Notes: a model not told the origin generated them from the sequence alone. 40,596 nt of DNA from a virus (IMGVR_UViG_3300021437_000045:1-40596), one strand, 5' to 3'. Positions 2,826 through 18,304 are shown, counted from the first letter of the stretch. Translations and numbers: made by a program.

Positions 2826-5800
2826 CTATAGTCTCGTGGTTCGTATTCCGATCTGAGTCAGCTTGGCAACCATCGACTGTGCCATCTGGTCGGATAGGTT
2901 GGCCATCGCCTGCTGGCCGACAATGGTCGAGCCAGTCAGGTTGACGTGCAGGGTGATGTTCTGCACCTGGCCACTGACGGTCGGCTGGTTCGGCACGCCC
3001 AGAGCGGCCGCGCTGATGACGCCGCCGCCCGGGCCGAGCGTGGCGGGCGTGTAGCCGCCCGTCTGCAACGGCATTGAAGCGATGACACCCTGACCAGCGA
3101 GGGCAATTTGAGCCGCAGCCGTTTGGGTGGCGGTCGCCAGAGCGGCAACGCCTTGAGAGGCGACAGCCAGCGTAGAGCTGACGACGCCGGCGTTGTTGGC
3201 CAGCATCGCCACTGAGCCAGCGGCGGCTGTAGTCGCGACCGTGGTGCTGTTCATGGCGTTGGTAACGCCCATGGCTGCGTCAAGCTCTTGGCCGGCCGCC
3301 GCTACGGCCTGGTCGGCTACGGCTTTCAGCTTGGCGTAGGCCGCCGTTCCGACAGCAGCCTGCGCCGCCGCTTCGAGCGCGTTGGCGGTCTGGGCGTCCT
3401 GTAACGCTTTGGTGAGTGCATTGGCCACCGTGGTCGCGGCCGTGGCGACGACAGCGGTCGACGCAGCGGACTGATTGAAAGGTTGGCCGGTCACAGGATT
3501 GGTATTAGCCATCGCGTTCTCTTGCTGGATCTTATTCCATGTGTTGATGGCCGCCTGCATCGGATCGAGCGTGATGTCGTTGTGCAGCGCTCCAAAGAAG
3601 CCACCGAGCGCGCCAGCCATGGTCGGTGCCTGGATCACATCGCCCGGTTGGACGCTAAGCGTCATCGGAGCGCTCTGACCACCCATCGCAGCCGCGAGGT
3701 CGGCCGAGATACCTGCACCTTCCGTGCCACCTAGTCCCATCTTGCCGCCACGACCGCCACCACCGCCCCGGCCTATCCCAGACACCGCACTCGCCGCAGC
3801 GTTGGCGCTCGTGGTCACCTGGTTTGCCGCATCGGCGATGGCATGGATGCTGTCCACGACCGCACCGCTTGAGTTAACGAACGCCTGGTCGGCGTTCGAC
3901 CAGGTCATCATTCCGTCAGCCGCATCCGAAAAGACTTTCCCAGATTGATCGGCTTGGTCGTTGACTTTTGCGATTGAACCAGTGAGTACCTCGATGCTAA
4001 GCGAATCCTCATTTGCGGCTTCGGCAGCGTTTCGATGGGCCCCTGCGATCACCTGTATCGACTGGCCCATCGTTGACAGGTAATCCATGTACTTTTTGTC
4101 GGAAATGTACAGCGAGTCCGACGCGGTAGCGTGGTCAGCAACCGCCTTCGCCGCATCCATATGCGGCTTAACCGAGCCCTCCGCAGCCGCACCAGCCTTA
4201 GTCGCCGCATCCGCCGCTGTAGCCGAAGCCTTCGCCGCCGCTTCCTGGGCGTTGGTGTATGCCGTCTGCGCGGGCGTCAGCGCTGTGAAACCGCCAGCCT
4301 GTCGCGCCAGAGAATCGTTCAGCTTGTCGTTAGCGGACTGGATCGACGCCAGCGCCTTCGTGCCCGCCGCTTCCATCGACGGGTAATGGCCTGTGATGAG
4401 CTGTATGGCGTCGGCGAGCGCCTTAAGAGCTCCATTGAGAGCTCCGATGGGTCCGAGCAAATCAGACCAGTGAATCGAACTGACCGCGTCCTTGACCTGT
4501 TGCCAGAGCTGCGTGAAATTCGGCAGGTAAGCTCCCAGGCTTTTGATCGCATCACCCACCGGCCCGAGCATCCCGAGCAGGCTATTGAAAGCCGACGCAA
4601 CCGCGCCGCCGATTAGCTGCGCGAGAGAGGAAAGGGAATCCTTGAAACTGTTCCAGGCCGGTACACCGTCCGAGAGCACCTGGTTGAGGTCGGTGAGGTT
4701 CTTAATCAGCTCCTTGACCTGGTCCCACAGCACCACCACGGCCGCGATGCCAGCCGCAGCGGTCAGGAACCCGAGGATGGCCGTCTCTGCGCCCACGAGA
4801 GCGCCCGTCATGCCCGTCCCGACAGCCTCAACCACGGTGCCGATCGACGCGACGAATCCTGGGAGCGTCACAGTTACCAGCGTGCTGATCGACGCTCCAA
4901 ATGCAGCAATCATCGGGATCGCATCCGCAGCCGCCGTGGCCGCCAGTCCGAATCCACCAAGCGCAACGACTAACGGCGCGGCGAGAGCCACGATTAGACC
5001 GAGCGCTACAGCTACGTCTTTCACTGGTCCAGGCAGTTTGTTGAAGGCGTCCACTGCCGCTTGGATCGTGGGCACGATATTCGTACCGATGAAAGTCAGA
5101 ACGGCGCTGATGACTGGCGCAAGCGCCGCACCGATCGACTCCATGACGAACTCGACTTGCGTGCCCAGATTCTTGAACTGTCCAGAGATAGTCTGGGCCT
5201 GCTCCGAGGCCACGCCGCCGAATTTGGCGAGCGCTTGGGTGAGGACGTCAACGCGTTCGGTCTGATCCAGAGCTTTGAAAGCCTTGGTCACTTCGGATGT
5301 CGAAACATCCATTACTTTGGCCAGGTCAGCGCTGGACATTCCCAACTGCGCGAGCGAACGCCCTACGACAGCACCGGAACTGGAGAAGCGGTCAAGGATA
5401 TCGACAGTGTGGTTAAAATCGGTACCCATGGTCGCTGACGCATCAGCCGCGGCCTGCAGCAGCTTTGGTATTTGCTCAGCCGAAATGTTGAACGCCCGCA
5501 TGCGGGTCTCTGCCTGTACGAGAGCCGGGAACGAAAGAGCATCAGCGACGGCCAGCGTCTTCAGTTGCTCTAAAATCTTGTCAGCTTCCTCAGCACTGCC
5601 CGTCAGGGCTGTCAACGAGACGGCAGCTTTTTGGACATTGCCGAACGTGCTGAGCGCTTCCTGACCGAACTCCTTGAGTCCTTCGGTCAAAGCGAGCGCC
5701 TCGCCGAAAGCCAGCATCTTTTCCCAAAAGTTCTCGACCTCTGGCGCGGCCTCTTCCGACGAATGACCAACATCCTGAATTGCGGTAGCGGCCTCTTGCG

Positions 5801-16279: not shown

Positions 16280-18304
16280 CTACTCTTCTTCCTCTCCCGC
16301 TCCCACGGTCCTGTAGACCTCGCTGCAATCGCAGTTCGACACCACGAAGCCGTCGCTACAGTACAGACCCACCTCGGTACTAGCATCAAAAGCCCATCCC
16401 TTGAAATGCACCTGTTGAGTACGATTGATTCTGGAGAGAAAGAAATGGGTTCCAGACAGGCCGCCGCTCACGCTGCCCGGAGAGGGCAAAAGGATTCCGC
16501 TGAGGTTCTTAGAAAACGTGCCGAGACTCGATTCGGTCGGGGTCTCCATATCGGCAAGTACGAGCGGGATCTCGCCGAGGCGCTCAAGACCAGAGGGATC
16601 ACGTTCCTCCAACAGGCCACGCTCGGGAAATACAACCTGGATTTCTTGCTCAGTCACGACCCGGTCGCCGTGGAAGTCGTTAGCGGTCGCGGGAACTCTC
16701 GAATTGCCGCTTCGCATGCGGATCGCTGCAAACACATCCTCGACAAGTACAACCTGATCGAAGTACGGCTTACCAAAAGACGTGGGCTTGATTGGACGGC
16801 GATCACGGACAAGATAGTCGCCCTCACGCAGGAGTTTCGCCGCGACCAAGCCGCGAGAGGTGAGCATCGGATGATTCGGCCCGATGGTAGCGATATACTC
16901 CCCGGTGTACAGGCGAATGGCAAGACCATCGTATTCAGCGGCCACCATCCGCTGAAGAGCACCATAGGGTCGAAACGTAGATCCCTCTAGCACTGCGTTG
17001 GGATGCGCGGGTGGCTCGAAGTCGCCCGAATCGTGCGGCGCGTCAAACGGTATCCAGTCCTCGTCGGCGTTTGGCTGGCAAATTTCCACGCAGCCCTCGG
17101 CGCCCACGTCCCAGCGCTTCTCGACTTCGATACCAGCGTCCTGTGCGGATTGAGCCACCGCGTTCGCGCCCTCGTGATAGGCATTAGAAACGGTGTCGAG
17201 TGCGACGGTGTCGGCGCGGCTGAGTTGGCCTTCGGGCGCGTCGCTAAACTCATTGAACATGCCGCGGACGGCCGCCAGCGCACCAGCGTAGCCCCACGGT
17301 GAGACATCCGACAGCGCCGTATGCATCCGGTCGTTGGTCGTGTTGTCGAGCTGTGCTTCGAGCACGTCGCTCGTGTCTTCCGGTTCGGGGATGTTCGGAG
17401 GCAACGCCTGCGGTCTCTTCGCTTCGGCGCCGAGGCGCGAGCCGAAAGCCACCAGGTCGCCGAGCTGCGATACAACGTGATTCGCACCGGTCTGATAAGC
17501 CGCGGTCCTGACGGCATGGTGGGCTTTCTGGAACTTGTCATCGGTCGCAGGCAGGGCGGCTTGGAGCATCGCCGAGACGTGCGCGGCGTCGGCGCCGCCG
17601 TCGATGTCTGGCCGCATGTCCTTCAGCACCTTGCGCACGCGAATAGACTGGCGGTTCCAGCGCTTGGTGATGGCAGCGCGCGCCTGGTCGCGGAGCGGTT
17701 GAATCTGGGCGCGTTTGGTGTTCGCCATGAGGTTTTCCGAAAGCCGCATCAGGTCTGTGATCCAACTGAAGTTGGCAACCTGCTGGGCCTCAGCCAACGG
17801 GTTCTCAACTTCCTTGGGGTCGTCGCCGACCAGATGGGCCGCGAGCTTGGGCGTCACGAACCAGCGGAACAAACCTTTGTCGGTGTTGACGTAGGCACAG
17901 GAGCCGTGTTCCCAGTGCCACTTGCAGTCGAGGAAGTTGAACGCGACCGACGCCAGGATCTTTTGTATCAGCGGGCCGTGAGTGACTACCAGCACGGTCT
18001 TGGCGTCGCCCGCGAGCTTAGTGATAGCTTTCCAAGCGGCGTCCACGTACTTCTGGCCTTCAGCCGGGTCAGGCCGCAGTGCGGGCGTCGTCTTAATCGG
18101 CGTGTCGCCGCGCTGAAGGATGGCCGCCGTATCTTCGGCACGCGCAAAGTCCGAGCAGATGATGACATCGGGCGAAACGTCGGCGAGCCTCAGGACCTTG
18201 CGCATGGCCTTGGCTTGCGCCTTGCCGATATCGTTGATGGTGCGCTCAGCGTCCATCTGCTCGCCTTCGTCGGTGAGCGCATGACGAACCAGATAGAGCT
18301 TCAT
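16280..18304 (-). CDS. Histidine phosphatase-Mu gpF-like head protein fusion, interrupted by an intein
   Basis: 674-residue precursor. Residues 1-155 are a histidine phosphatase (SixA/phosphoglycerate-mutase) domain: MKLYLVRHALT with R7-H8, CSDFARAEDTA with R55, and VVTHGPL with H109. Residues about 170-440 resemble SPP1 gp7/Mu gpF minor head proteins, which end in a paired-Cys region and an HPxCxC motif; here C-VEIC is followed by PPAHPN. At that point residues 437-657 are an intein, after which CDCSEVYR completes the motif. Splicing would leave about 453 residues. The ATG overlaps the upstream TGA as ATGA. The gene lies after the portal, as gpF genes do. The phosphatase fusion is unusual. 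Confidence 0.87.
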   Translation of the reverse strand: MKLYLVRHALTDEGEQMDAERTINDIGKAQAKAMRKVLRLADVSPDVIICSDFARAEDTAAILQRGDTPIKTTPALRPDPAEGQKYVDAAWKAITKLAGDAKTVLVVTHGPLIQKILASVAFNFLDCKWHWEHGSCAYVNTDKGLFRWFVTPKLAAHLVGDDPKEVENPLAEAQQVANFSWITDLMRLSENLMANTKRAQIQPLRDQARAAITKRWNRQSIRVRKVLKDMRPDIDGGADAAHVSAMLQAALPATDDKFQKAHHAVRTAAYQTGANHVVSQLGDLVAFGSRLGAEAKRPQALPPNIPEPEDTSDVLEAQLDNTTNDRMHTALSDVSPWGYAGALAAVRGMFNEFSDAPEGQLSRADTVALDTVSNAYHEGANAVAQSAQDAGIEVEKRWDVGAEGCVEICQPNADEDWIPFDAPHDSGDFEPPAHPNAVLEGSTFRPYGALQRMVAAEYDGLAIRLYTGEYIATIGPNHPMLTSRGLVAAKLLREGDYLVRDRRPIKPTSFGKPYFDQVVLVEDVFAAIRMRSGNSRVPATANDFHGDRVVTEQEIQVVFPERGLLEERDPSGLERLGEIPLVLADMETPTESSLGTFSKNLSGILLPSPGSVSGGLSGTHFFLSRINRTQQVHFKGWAFDASTEVGLYCSDGFVVSNCDCSEVYRTVGAGEEEE
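16334..16996 (-). other. Intein in the HPN|CDC motif of the head protein
   Basis: 221 residues. The first residue is Ala (AVLEGSTFRPYG) rather than Cys or Ser, as in Ala1 inteins, where the +1 Cys attacks the upstream junction directly. Block B is GPNHPMLTSRGLVAAKLL, with the conserved His at intein residue 42 and Gly in place of the usual Thr. The middle carries DFHGD (107-111) and EIQVV (118-122). The end is GLYCSDGFVVSN followed by Cys+1, with Ser instead of the usual penultimate His. No LAGLIDADG or HNH domain is present on this strand. The endonuclease is encoded on the opposite strand. Confidence 0.88.
16445..16990 (+). CDS. Vsr/DUF559-like homing endonuclease encoded antisense within the intein
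   Basis: 181 residues from an ATG at 16445, preceded by GGAG eight bases upstream. The core reads KYERDLAEALKTRGITFLQQ, then YNLDF (63-67) and VAVEV (74-78), the D and E of a PD-(D/E)xK/Vsr-like nuclease, then an R-rich helix and DKYNLIEVRL. The C-terminal ARGEHRMIRPDG matches a tail I associate with this family of phage endonucleases. The gene lies wholly inside the intein DNA on the other strand, ends 6 bases from the intein boundary, and is in exact codon register with it. Probable role: homing of the intein. Confidence 0.85.
   Translation: MGSRQAAAHAARRGQKDSAEVLRKRAETRFGRGLHIGKYERDLAEALKTRGITFLQQATLGKYNLDFLLSHDPVAVEVVSGRGNSRIAASHADRCKHILDKYNLIEVRLTKRRGLDWTAITDKIVALTQEFRRDQAARGEHRMIRPDGSDILPGVQANGKTIVFSGHHPLKSTIGSKRRSL

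Follow-up and report, generated by a model that had tools for sequence, protein, structure and literature searches.

Positions 16280–18304 of the virus record IMGVR_UViG_3300021437_000045 hold, on the minus strand, a gene for a phage head protein precursor of the Mu-F type (a single open reading frame (ORF) of 674 amino acids) that is interrupted by a predicted intein of 221 residues, and the plus strand of the same DNA encodes, wholly within the intein, a protein of 181 amino acids that is predicted to be a nuclease of the Vsr/PD-(D/E)XK type and is a putative homing endonuclease. The record, an IMG/VR entry of 57-60% GC, was analysed at its whole length of 40,596 nucleotides and is referred to below as the window. 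The evidence from the window and its relatives is most consistent with an intein that is mobile and has its homing endonuclease encoded as a separate gene on the complementary strand of the DNA that codes for the intein itself, a reading to which we assign a probability of about 0.88. The same arrangement probably defines a widespread class of phage inteins, with at least 585 IMG/VR loci and a range from phages of Actinobacteria to those of Proteobacteria, in which a splicing protein and a homing nuclease are encoded on opposite strands, codon for codon, the nuclease gene starting within block F of the intein. Such a dual-coded selfish element could lose neither partner without damage to the other.

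The intein (16334..16996, minus strand; A1 to N221) separates an N-extein (18304-16997) that ends with PPAHPN from a C-extein (16333-16283 plus the stop codon) that begins with CDC; with the junctions marked by slashes, the precursor reads ...PPAHPN/AVLEGSTF...GFVVSN/CDC..., and the residues at the splice junctions are A1, N221 and C at position +1. The antisense ORF (16445..16990, plus strand) starts with the ATG at 16445, 8 nt after a Shine-Dalgarno-like GGAG (16433..16436, plus strand), and terminates with the TAG at 16988-16990, which ends 6 bp from the intein edge; the codons of the intein and those of the nuclease are in exact antisense register. All these features of the locus, that is, the minus-strand intein in a phage head protein, the plus-strand ORF with its upstream GGAG, the placement of both start and stop inside the intein and the shared register, had been described in the original prediction, and all were verified, down to the exact coordinates and the 221 codons. 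The host gene is identified as a head protein gene by a match to phrog_15127 (E 1.6e-11).

In GC-rich DNA, an open antisense frame in register with a gene comes cheaply, so that a single sequence proves little. When the expected number of antisense stops is computed from each gene's own extein codon usage, 1.84 stops are expected for the window alone and the probability of finding none is 0.15; other long antisense ORFs are also present in the window. The case therefore rests on the relatives. For 27 inteins taken together, the antisense ORF stretches should contain 180 stops and have 0 (log10 P about -91). The AT-rich members, which remain open as well, are the most informative: Aaphi23 (18 stops expected, P 8e-10), PvVp04 (19 expected) and VaM_H2 (21 expected, P 5e-12). 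Leucine and serine codons that read as stops on the antisense strand (TTA, CTA and TCA) account for 208 of 1730 such codons in the exteins and for 0 of 1329 within the antisense ORFs.

The constraint on each strand was assessed by resampling, in which the proteins encoded by one strand of a sequence pair are held fixed, the synonymous codons are redrawn, and the similarity of the products of the other strand is compared with the simulations. With the sense proteins fixed, the median excess of antisense similarity is z = 7.5 among 66 pairs of inteins of the window type, which start with alanine (A1 type), and z = 8.0 among 55 pairs of the subgroup that starts with cysteine (C1 type); with the antisense proteins fixed, the corresponding medians for sense similarity are 7.7 and 7.3. 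In all 121 pairs, z is greater than 3.7 in both directions, against a median of 0.5 for exteins subjected to the same procedure. For example, the pair of VaM_H2 and CF74b (L026/L027) shows z = 0.1 in the extein versus 13.0 in the intein, the pair of KpTDp1 and MSW-3 (L031/L039) 0.3 versus 16.6, and the pair L015/L017 1.8 versus 14.1. Very close pairs inherit codons, which inflates z (extein pairs that are more than 80% identical reach 5.6-10), so that it is the diverged pairs that carry the argument. Both frames are under protein-level constraint.

The same conclusion follows from individual positions in an alignment of 29 sequences. The predicted catalytic residue D66 of the nuclease (codon 16640..16642, plus strand, opposite intein residue 119) is present in 29/29 sequences, encoded by GAC in 17 and GAT in 12, whereas the facing intein residue is V in 17 and I in 12. 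The second predicted catalytic residue, E77 (16673..16675, plus strand, opposite F108 of the intein "DFHGD" stretch), is likewise found in 29/29 (GAA 21, GAG 8) and faces F in 21 and L in 8 inteins; R94 (16724..16726, plus strand, opposite intein residue 91) is invariant in all 29 and faces A in 14, S in 12 and T in 3. E40 is conserved in 28/29. Conversely, N41 and H42 of intein block B (in the motif GPNHP; 16871..16876, minus strand, opposite nuclease residues 144-143) are both invariant (29/29), and the nuclease residues that face them vary (I/V and V/M). Mean entropy is lower on the antisense strand opposite intein residues 73-180, the linker, and lower on the sense strand opposite blocks B and A. 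Given this split, the nuclease has its catalytic core opposite the site where ordinary inteins hold their endonuclease domain; the splicing blocks A and B and the N4 block lie opposite the C-terminal part of the nuclease.

Additional evidence comes from a free-standing homologue of the antisense nuclease, a protein of 231 amino acids encoded at 3291-3983 (plus strand) of locus L051, a metagenome-assembled genome of Thermoleophilia. This gene is located tail to tail with an intein-free Mu-F head gene, which reads through the insertion site as HPQ/CRC, and the strand that faces it contains neither block B nor the DFHGD stretch. The L051 protein aligns with the antisense strand of head genes that carry an intein in 113 phage records, with identities of up to 39% and E down to 2e-29. 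No further free-standing homologues of the L051 protein were found in IMG/VR; it might represent either an ancestor of the nested arrangement or an escapee from it.

Next to no credence can be given to the explanation that high GC content and exact register by themselves produce the antisense ORF, its conservation merely mirroring that of the intein. Long antisense frames are indeed numerous in high-GC phages, and shared ancestry produces antisense similarity in some close extein pairs; however, GC content does not account for the open frames of the AT-rich members, and antisense similarity in the inteins exceeds what is expected given the sense protein, an excess that the exteins lack. Besides, D, E and R are invariant opposite variable sense residues, and helix-turn-helix (HTH) and nuclease families are recognised in the antisense reading only. 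A frame due to chance or GC content is rejected by the stop counts, the resampling, the facing residues and the free-standing homologue. The mirror-image version, in particular, is rejected by the resampling with sense proteins fixed and by the L051 protein, which is under no mirror constraint from an intein and still matches the antisense strands. The earlier view that neither frame looks like a chance frame is borne out by stop counts, fixed-sense resampling and facing-residue variation across relatives.

Searches with intein (sense) queries identified 17 IMG/VR loci and 49 phage records, and those with antisense queries identified 5 IMG/VR loci and 42 phage records. The antisense matches fall within the head genes recovered by the sense queries, but on the other strand, and include Rhodococcus phage REQ3 and phages of Gordonia, Pseudomonas, Cronobacter, Klebsiella and Edwardsiella. 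Laboratory phages with the unit include E. coli phage Snoke and Gordonia phage Fosterous. In each inspected intein, an unbroken antisense ORF of about 190-390 codons is present, its end located among the first intein residues, and in the first set the antisense nuclease is kept in 30/30 inteins. A broad scan of the sense strand only, which combined a block B pattern with an intein query, yielded at least 585 confirmed IMG/VR loci, 80 of which were retained; the mixed-family antisense alignment is too diverged for scans of this collection. When these 80 loci and one other were searched in six frames with hidden Markov models of both proteins, all 81 had the intein in sense orientation and, in antisense, a full-length match to the nuclease, with no nuclease match elsewhere and no locus without one. 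Six of the nuclease matches contain a stop, which in the two that were viewed in full is located at the natural C-terminal end. Of 64 members in a non-redundant set, 60 have their antisense stop within the intein. Homologous inteins with a broken antisense frame had been named in the original prediction as a refutation; this check did not refute it, an antisense nuclease being kept in all 30 inteins of the first set and at all 81 loci.

In the sense product, residues 1-12 form intein block A, residues from about 37 to 45 ("TIGPNHPML") form block B, and blocks F/G ("GWAFDASTEVGLYCSDGFVVSN") make up the end; the C-terminal asparagine is conserved in 29/29 sequences, apart from one row that is cut by a contig end. 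For both proteins of the window, Pfam searches with the single sequence are weak or negative (the intein has no match at E<=0.1), and family-level profiles were used instead. The Pfam family Intein_splicing is matched by 16 of the 29 members, and the intein family profile matches the KlbA intein (2jmz, E 1.3e-8), PI-MtuI, RadA and other solved inteins. The closest structures to the AlphaFold2 (AF2) model of the window intein are inteins and hedgehog Hint domains (Z 5-6.5); the input alignments for AF2 combined the window with the IMG/VR loci. The window-type intein starts with alanine, as do class 2 inteins. No endonuclease family was found by Pfam in the sense frame of the 29 inteins. Thus, by family profile and fold match, the sense product is classified as an intein, and the head protein precursor is predicted to undergo protein splicing.

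Full-length antisense members consist of one or two HTH units (HTH_7, 3.5e-9; HTH_38, 7e-10) and a DUF559/Vsr/MTES_1575-like domain; in locus L001, DUF559 scores above the cut-off. The nuclease of the window, taken alone, shows weak similarity to Pfam MTES_1575 (E 0.016-0.027), and the profile of the nuclease family matches the catalytic domain of the I-Bth0305I homing endonuclease (3r3p, E 3e-4) and 3hrl (E 1.6e-4). The AF2 model of the nuclease (predicted local distance difference test score, pLDDT, 80; predicted template modelling score, pTM, 0.74) is most similar to Vsr (1cw0, Z 12.1, root-mean-square deviation 2.3 over 113 aligned residues), followed by a second Vsr structure, 1vsr (Z 11.2), and by I-Bth0305I (3r3p, Z 10.4, 91 residues). 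Thus, profile and fold both identify the antisense product as a predicted Vsr-like PD-(D/E)XK nuclease. The label Vsr/DUF559-like given to the ORF in the original prediction holds through the relatives, the family profile and the fold, the window sequence by itself being weak in Pfam. The accompanying claim of active-site motifs in both proteins agrees with D66, E77 and R94 of the nuclease and N41 and H42 of the intein. The window nuclease lacks the histidine of the GxWH motif. In the I-Bth0305I (EDxHD) family, the active-site histidine follows the second beta strand, in the GxWH region. The histidine is kept in other members (e.g., "EIFGGNWH" in L003 and "EVLGGNWH" in L040). Because the subgroup of the window lacks both this histidine and the HTH units that other members keep, it is assigned to the Vsr-like superfamily rather than to the EDxHD family.

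Some members of the nuclease family are elaborated further. The antisense nuclease of locus L014 (2410-3030, minus strand) contains an N-terminal zinc-ribbon-like motif (CADCGSVCDRRATRCNGC) that is absent in the other aligned members, and loci L019, L022, L055, L062 and L063 share an extra C-terminal HTH-like stretch in the antisense protein, opposite an insertion in the N-terminal region of the intein.

The putative expression signals of the antisense gene are themselves embedded in intein codons. In members of the C1 type, the codon for the histidine of block F, read on the other strand, supplies the antisense start codon, and the codons for "HVYNLQ/E" likewise supply the Shine-Dalgarno sequence (GGAGGT or GAGGT), which precedes the start by about 7 nt. 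The histidine codon in block F is CAT, which yields ATG, in 43 cases and CAC, which yields GTG, in 16, whereas the exteins have 155 CAT and 335 CAC (P 1.6e-9), and 54 of 59 antisense starts are preceded by a Shine-Dalgarno-like motif. In Acinetobacter phage BUCT629, the antisense ORF already has an annotation, as a hypothetical protein; elsewhere among the records examined, it is the head or intein reading that is annotated, with at most a fragment opposite. Under the favoured reading, the antisense gene would be transcribed and expressed.

When the extein flanks of Salmonella phage L223 were joined and used as a query, 484 records matched, 391 of which hold at least 80% of the query in one place; among the matches listed, these run unbroken across the joint, as empty sites do, and filled records break at it, which gives about 390 intein-free records. 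The head genes of the phages demigod and pink are 1860 and 1044 bp long, respectively, and differ by exactly 272 codons at HPN/C, with exteins that align without gaps at 86% identity. These empty sites are in Guernseyvirinae; no intein-free relatives of the window's own head gene were found in IMG/VR. A deaminase-like gene of virus Rctr197k is likewise interrupted by the intein-nuclease unit (PCVAC/.../CAKRL). Alleles with and without the unit differ by a precise block, and the earlier proposal that intein and nuclease move together gains support from these exact alleles and from the second host gene. Under the mechanism that we propose, the sense strand would give rise to the head protein precursor, from which the intein would splice itself out, and the antisense strand to the Vsr-like nuclease, the gene of which is contained in the intein; the nuclease would cleave the intein-free head gene allele of a co-infecting phage, and repair from the intein-bearing copy would transfer the whole block, such that the splicing protein and the nuclease move jointly. 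Both homing by the antisense nuclease and its cutting of the empty site are predictions of this mechanism.

It is quite improbable that the nuclease, although genuine and antisense, is not the homing enzyme of the intein but only shares the locus and has another role, such as cutting the DNA of competitor phages or of the host. Nucleases of the DUF559/Vsr-like kind have several roles, and the free-standing copy adjoins an intein-free head gene; that copy, however, sits beside the very same insertion site, the antisense ORF ends within the intein in nearly all members of the non-redundant set, the intein is exactly present or absent at one site, the unit occurs in a different host gene as well (L033, Rctr197k), and the closest solved relative is a homing endonuclease. 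A further explanation, which we consider unlikely, accepts homing for the family but holds that the window copy is inactive, with its nuclease or its intein in decay. Homing endonucleases typically decay after fixation, and the subgroup of the window has lost the GxWH histidine and the N-terminal HTH repeats; the start signal is moderate. Nevertheless, the window copy retains D66, E77, R94 and E40 of the nuclease and N41, H42 and N221 of the intein, and pairs that include the window show the same excess constraint (z 9.9 for the window and L006). Several observations weigh against the window encoding an active mobile intein with an antisense homing endonuclease. The window subgroup has G-G/R-G-N in place of the GxWH motif, which makes the activity of this copy uncertain; residues 154-181 at the C-terminus of the nuclease are predicted to be disordered, and the AF2 model of the window intein is of low confidence (pLDDT 55). 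In the window type, the antisense start is located further downstream, behind a plainer and modest GGAG; a search for a sigma-70-like promoter in the vicinity of this start was negative, and no ATG, GTG or TTG antisense start was found inside the intein in locus L012. Finally, the antisense ORF extends 4-7 codons beyond the intein edge in 4 of 64 cases. With these points included, a mobile intein with an opposite-strand homing endonuclease is still the reading that we favour.

Several of the host genes have unusual features. The N-terminal region of the head protein of the window (18304-17940, minus strand) is a histidine phosphatase (SixA-like) region (Pfam His_Phos_1, E 1.2e-13; SixA, 5.8e-12), and the fusion of a histidine phosphatase to Mu-F is odd for a phage head protein. 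The gene of Rctr197k (L033, KX853510.1, 2665-4017) is annotated as "head morphogenesis protein" but is deaminase-like, the annotation apparently having been derived from the intein. In loci L003-L005, a similar intein, with an antisense nuclease that belongs to the GGNWH type, is located in a gene of about 970 codons for a portal-MuF fusion.

It is rare for two recognisable enzymes, each classified independently, to overlap over a long stretch in sense-antisense orientation with strong comparative support. In this case, the overlap spans nearly all of both proteins and recurs in hundreds of phage loci, which would make these elements a natural laboratory for two-strand coding, all the more so as the catalytic codons of the nuclease can be altered by base changes that are silent in the intein; a change of the catalytic glutamate codon from GAA to AAA, for instance, leaves phenylalanine on the intein strand (TTC to TTT). 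The arrangement would also be a new route to an inseparable combination of nuclease and splicing element: deletion of the nuclease would destroy the intein linker, and vice versa, and this mutual dependence may slow the usual decay of homing endonucleases. Many phage head genes would carry an unannotated nuclease on the opposite strand, and surveys for in-frame endonuclease domains would label such inteins "endonuclease-free".

In the literature covered, no description was found of a nuclease encoded antisense within an intein; a preprint on actinobacteriophage inteins with a "non-canonical architecture" (10.1101/2025.01.02.630785) lies outside that coverage and is the main doubt on novelty, because several Gordonia phages carry the intein-nuclease unit. 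Canonical mobile inteins of the PI-SceI/LAGLIDADG type are similarly in-frame splicing elements at a conserved site of the host gene, associated with an endonuclease and with intein-free alleles; their endonuclease, however, is an in-frame domain on the same strand, whereas here it is predicted to be a separate antisense gene of another nuclease family that overlaps even block B. The Vsr-like homing endonuclease I-Bth0305I (3r3p) shares the catalytic fold and arrangement, with DNA-binding regions that flank the catalytic domain, but is annotated as a mobile intron protein, whereas the gene described here is antisense in an intein and, in the window subgroup, lacks the GxWH histidine. In the fractured genes with split inteins reportedly described by Dassa et al. 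in 2009, a separate Vsr-like endonuclease gene is said to lie between the two intein halves, in non-overlapping DNA; the Vsr-like gene there is also separate and tied to a phage intein, but in the present case the intein is intact and both proteins share base pairs. In the ShiLan element, an in-frame insertion in a phage gene conceals a homing-type nuclease in another reading frame, with no splicing domain found (PMC11855218), whereas the nuclease described here is Vsr-like and lies antisense within an intein that has splicing motifs. Nuclear group I introns contain antisense homing endonuclease genes that are expressed; these sit in P9.2, a peripheral insertion that is not part of the ribozyme core (PMC9548176). 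In both systems, the endonuclease gene runs opposite to its splicing element, but here it overlaps a protein-coding intein codon for codon.
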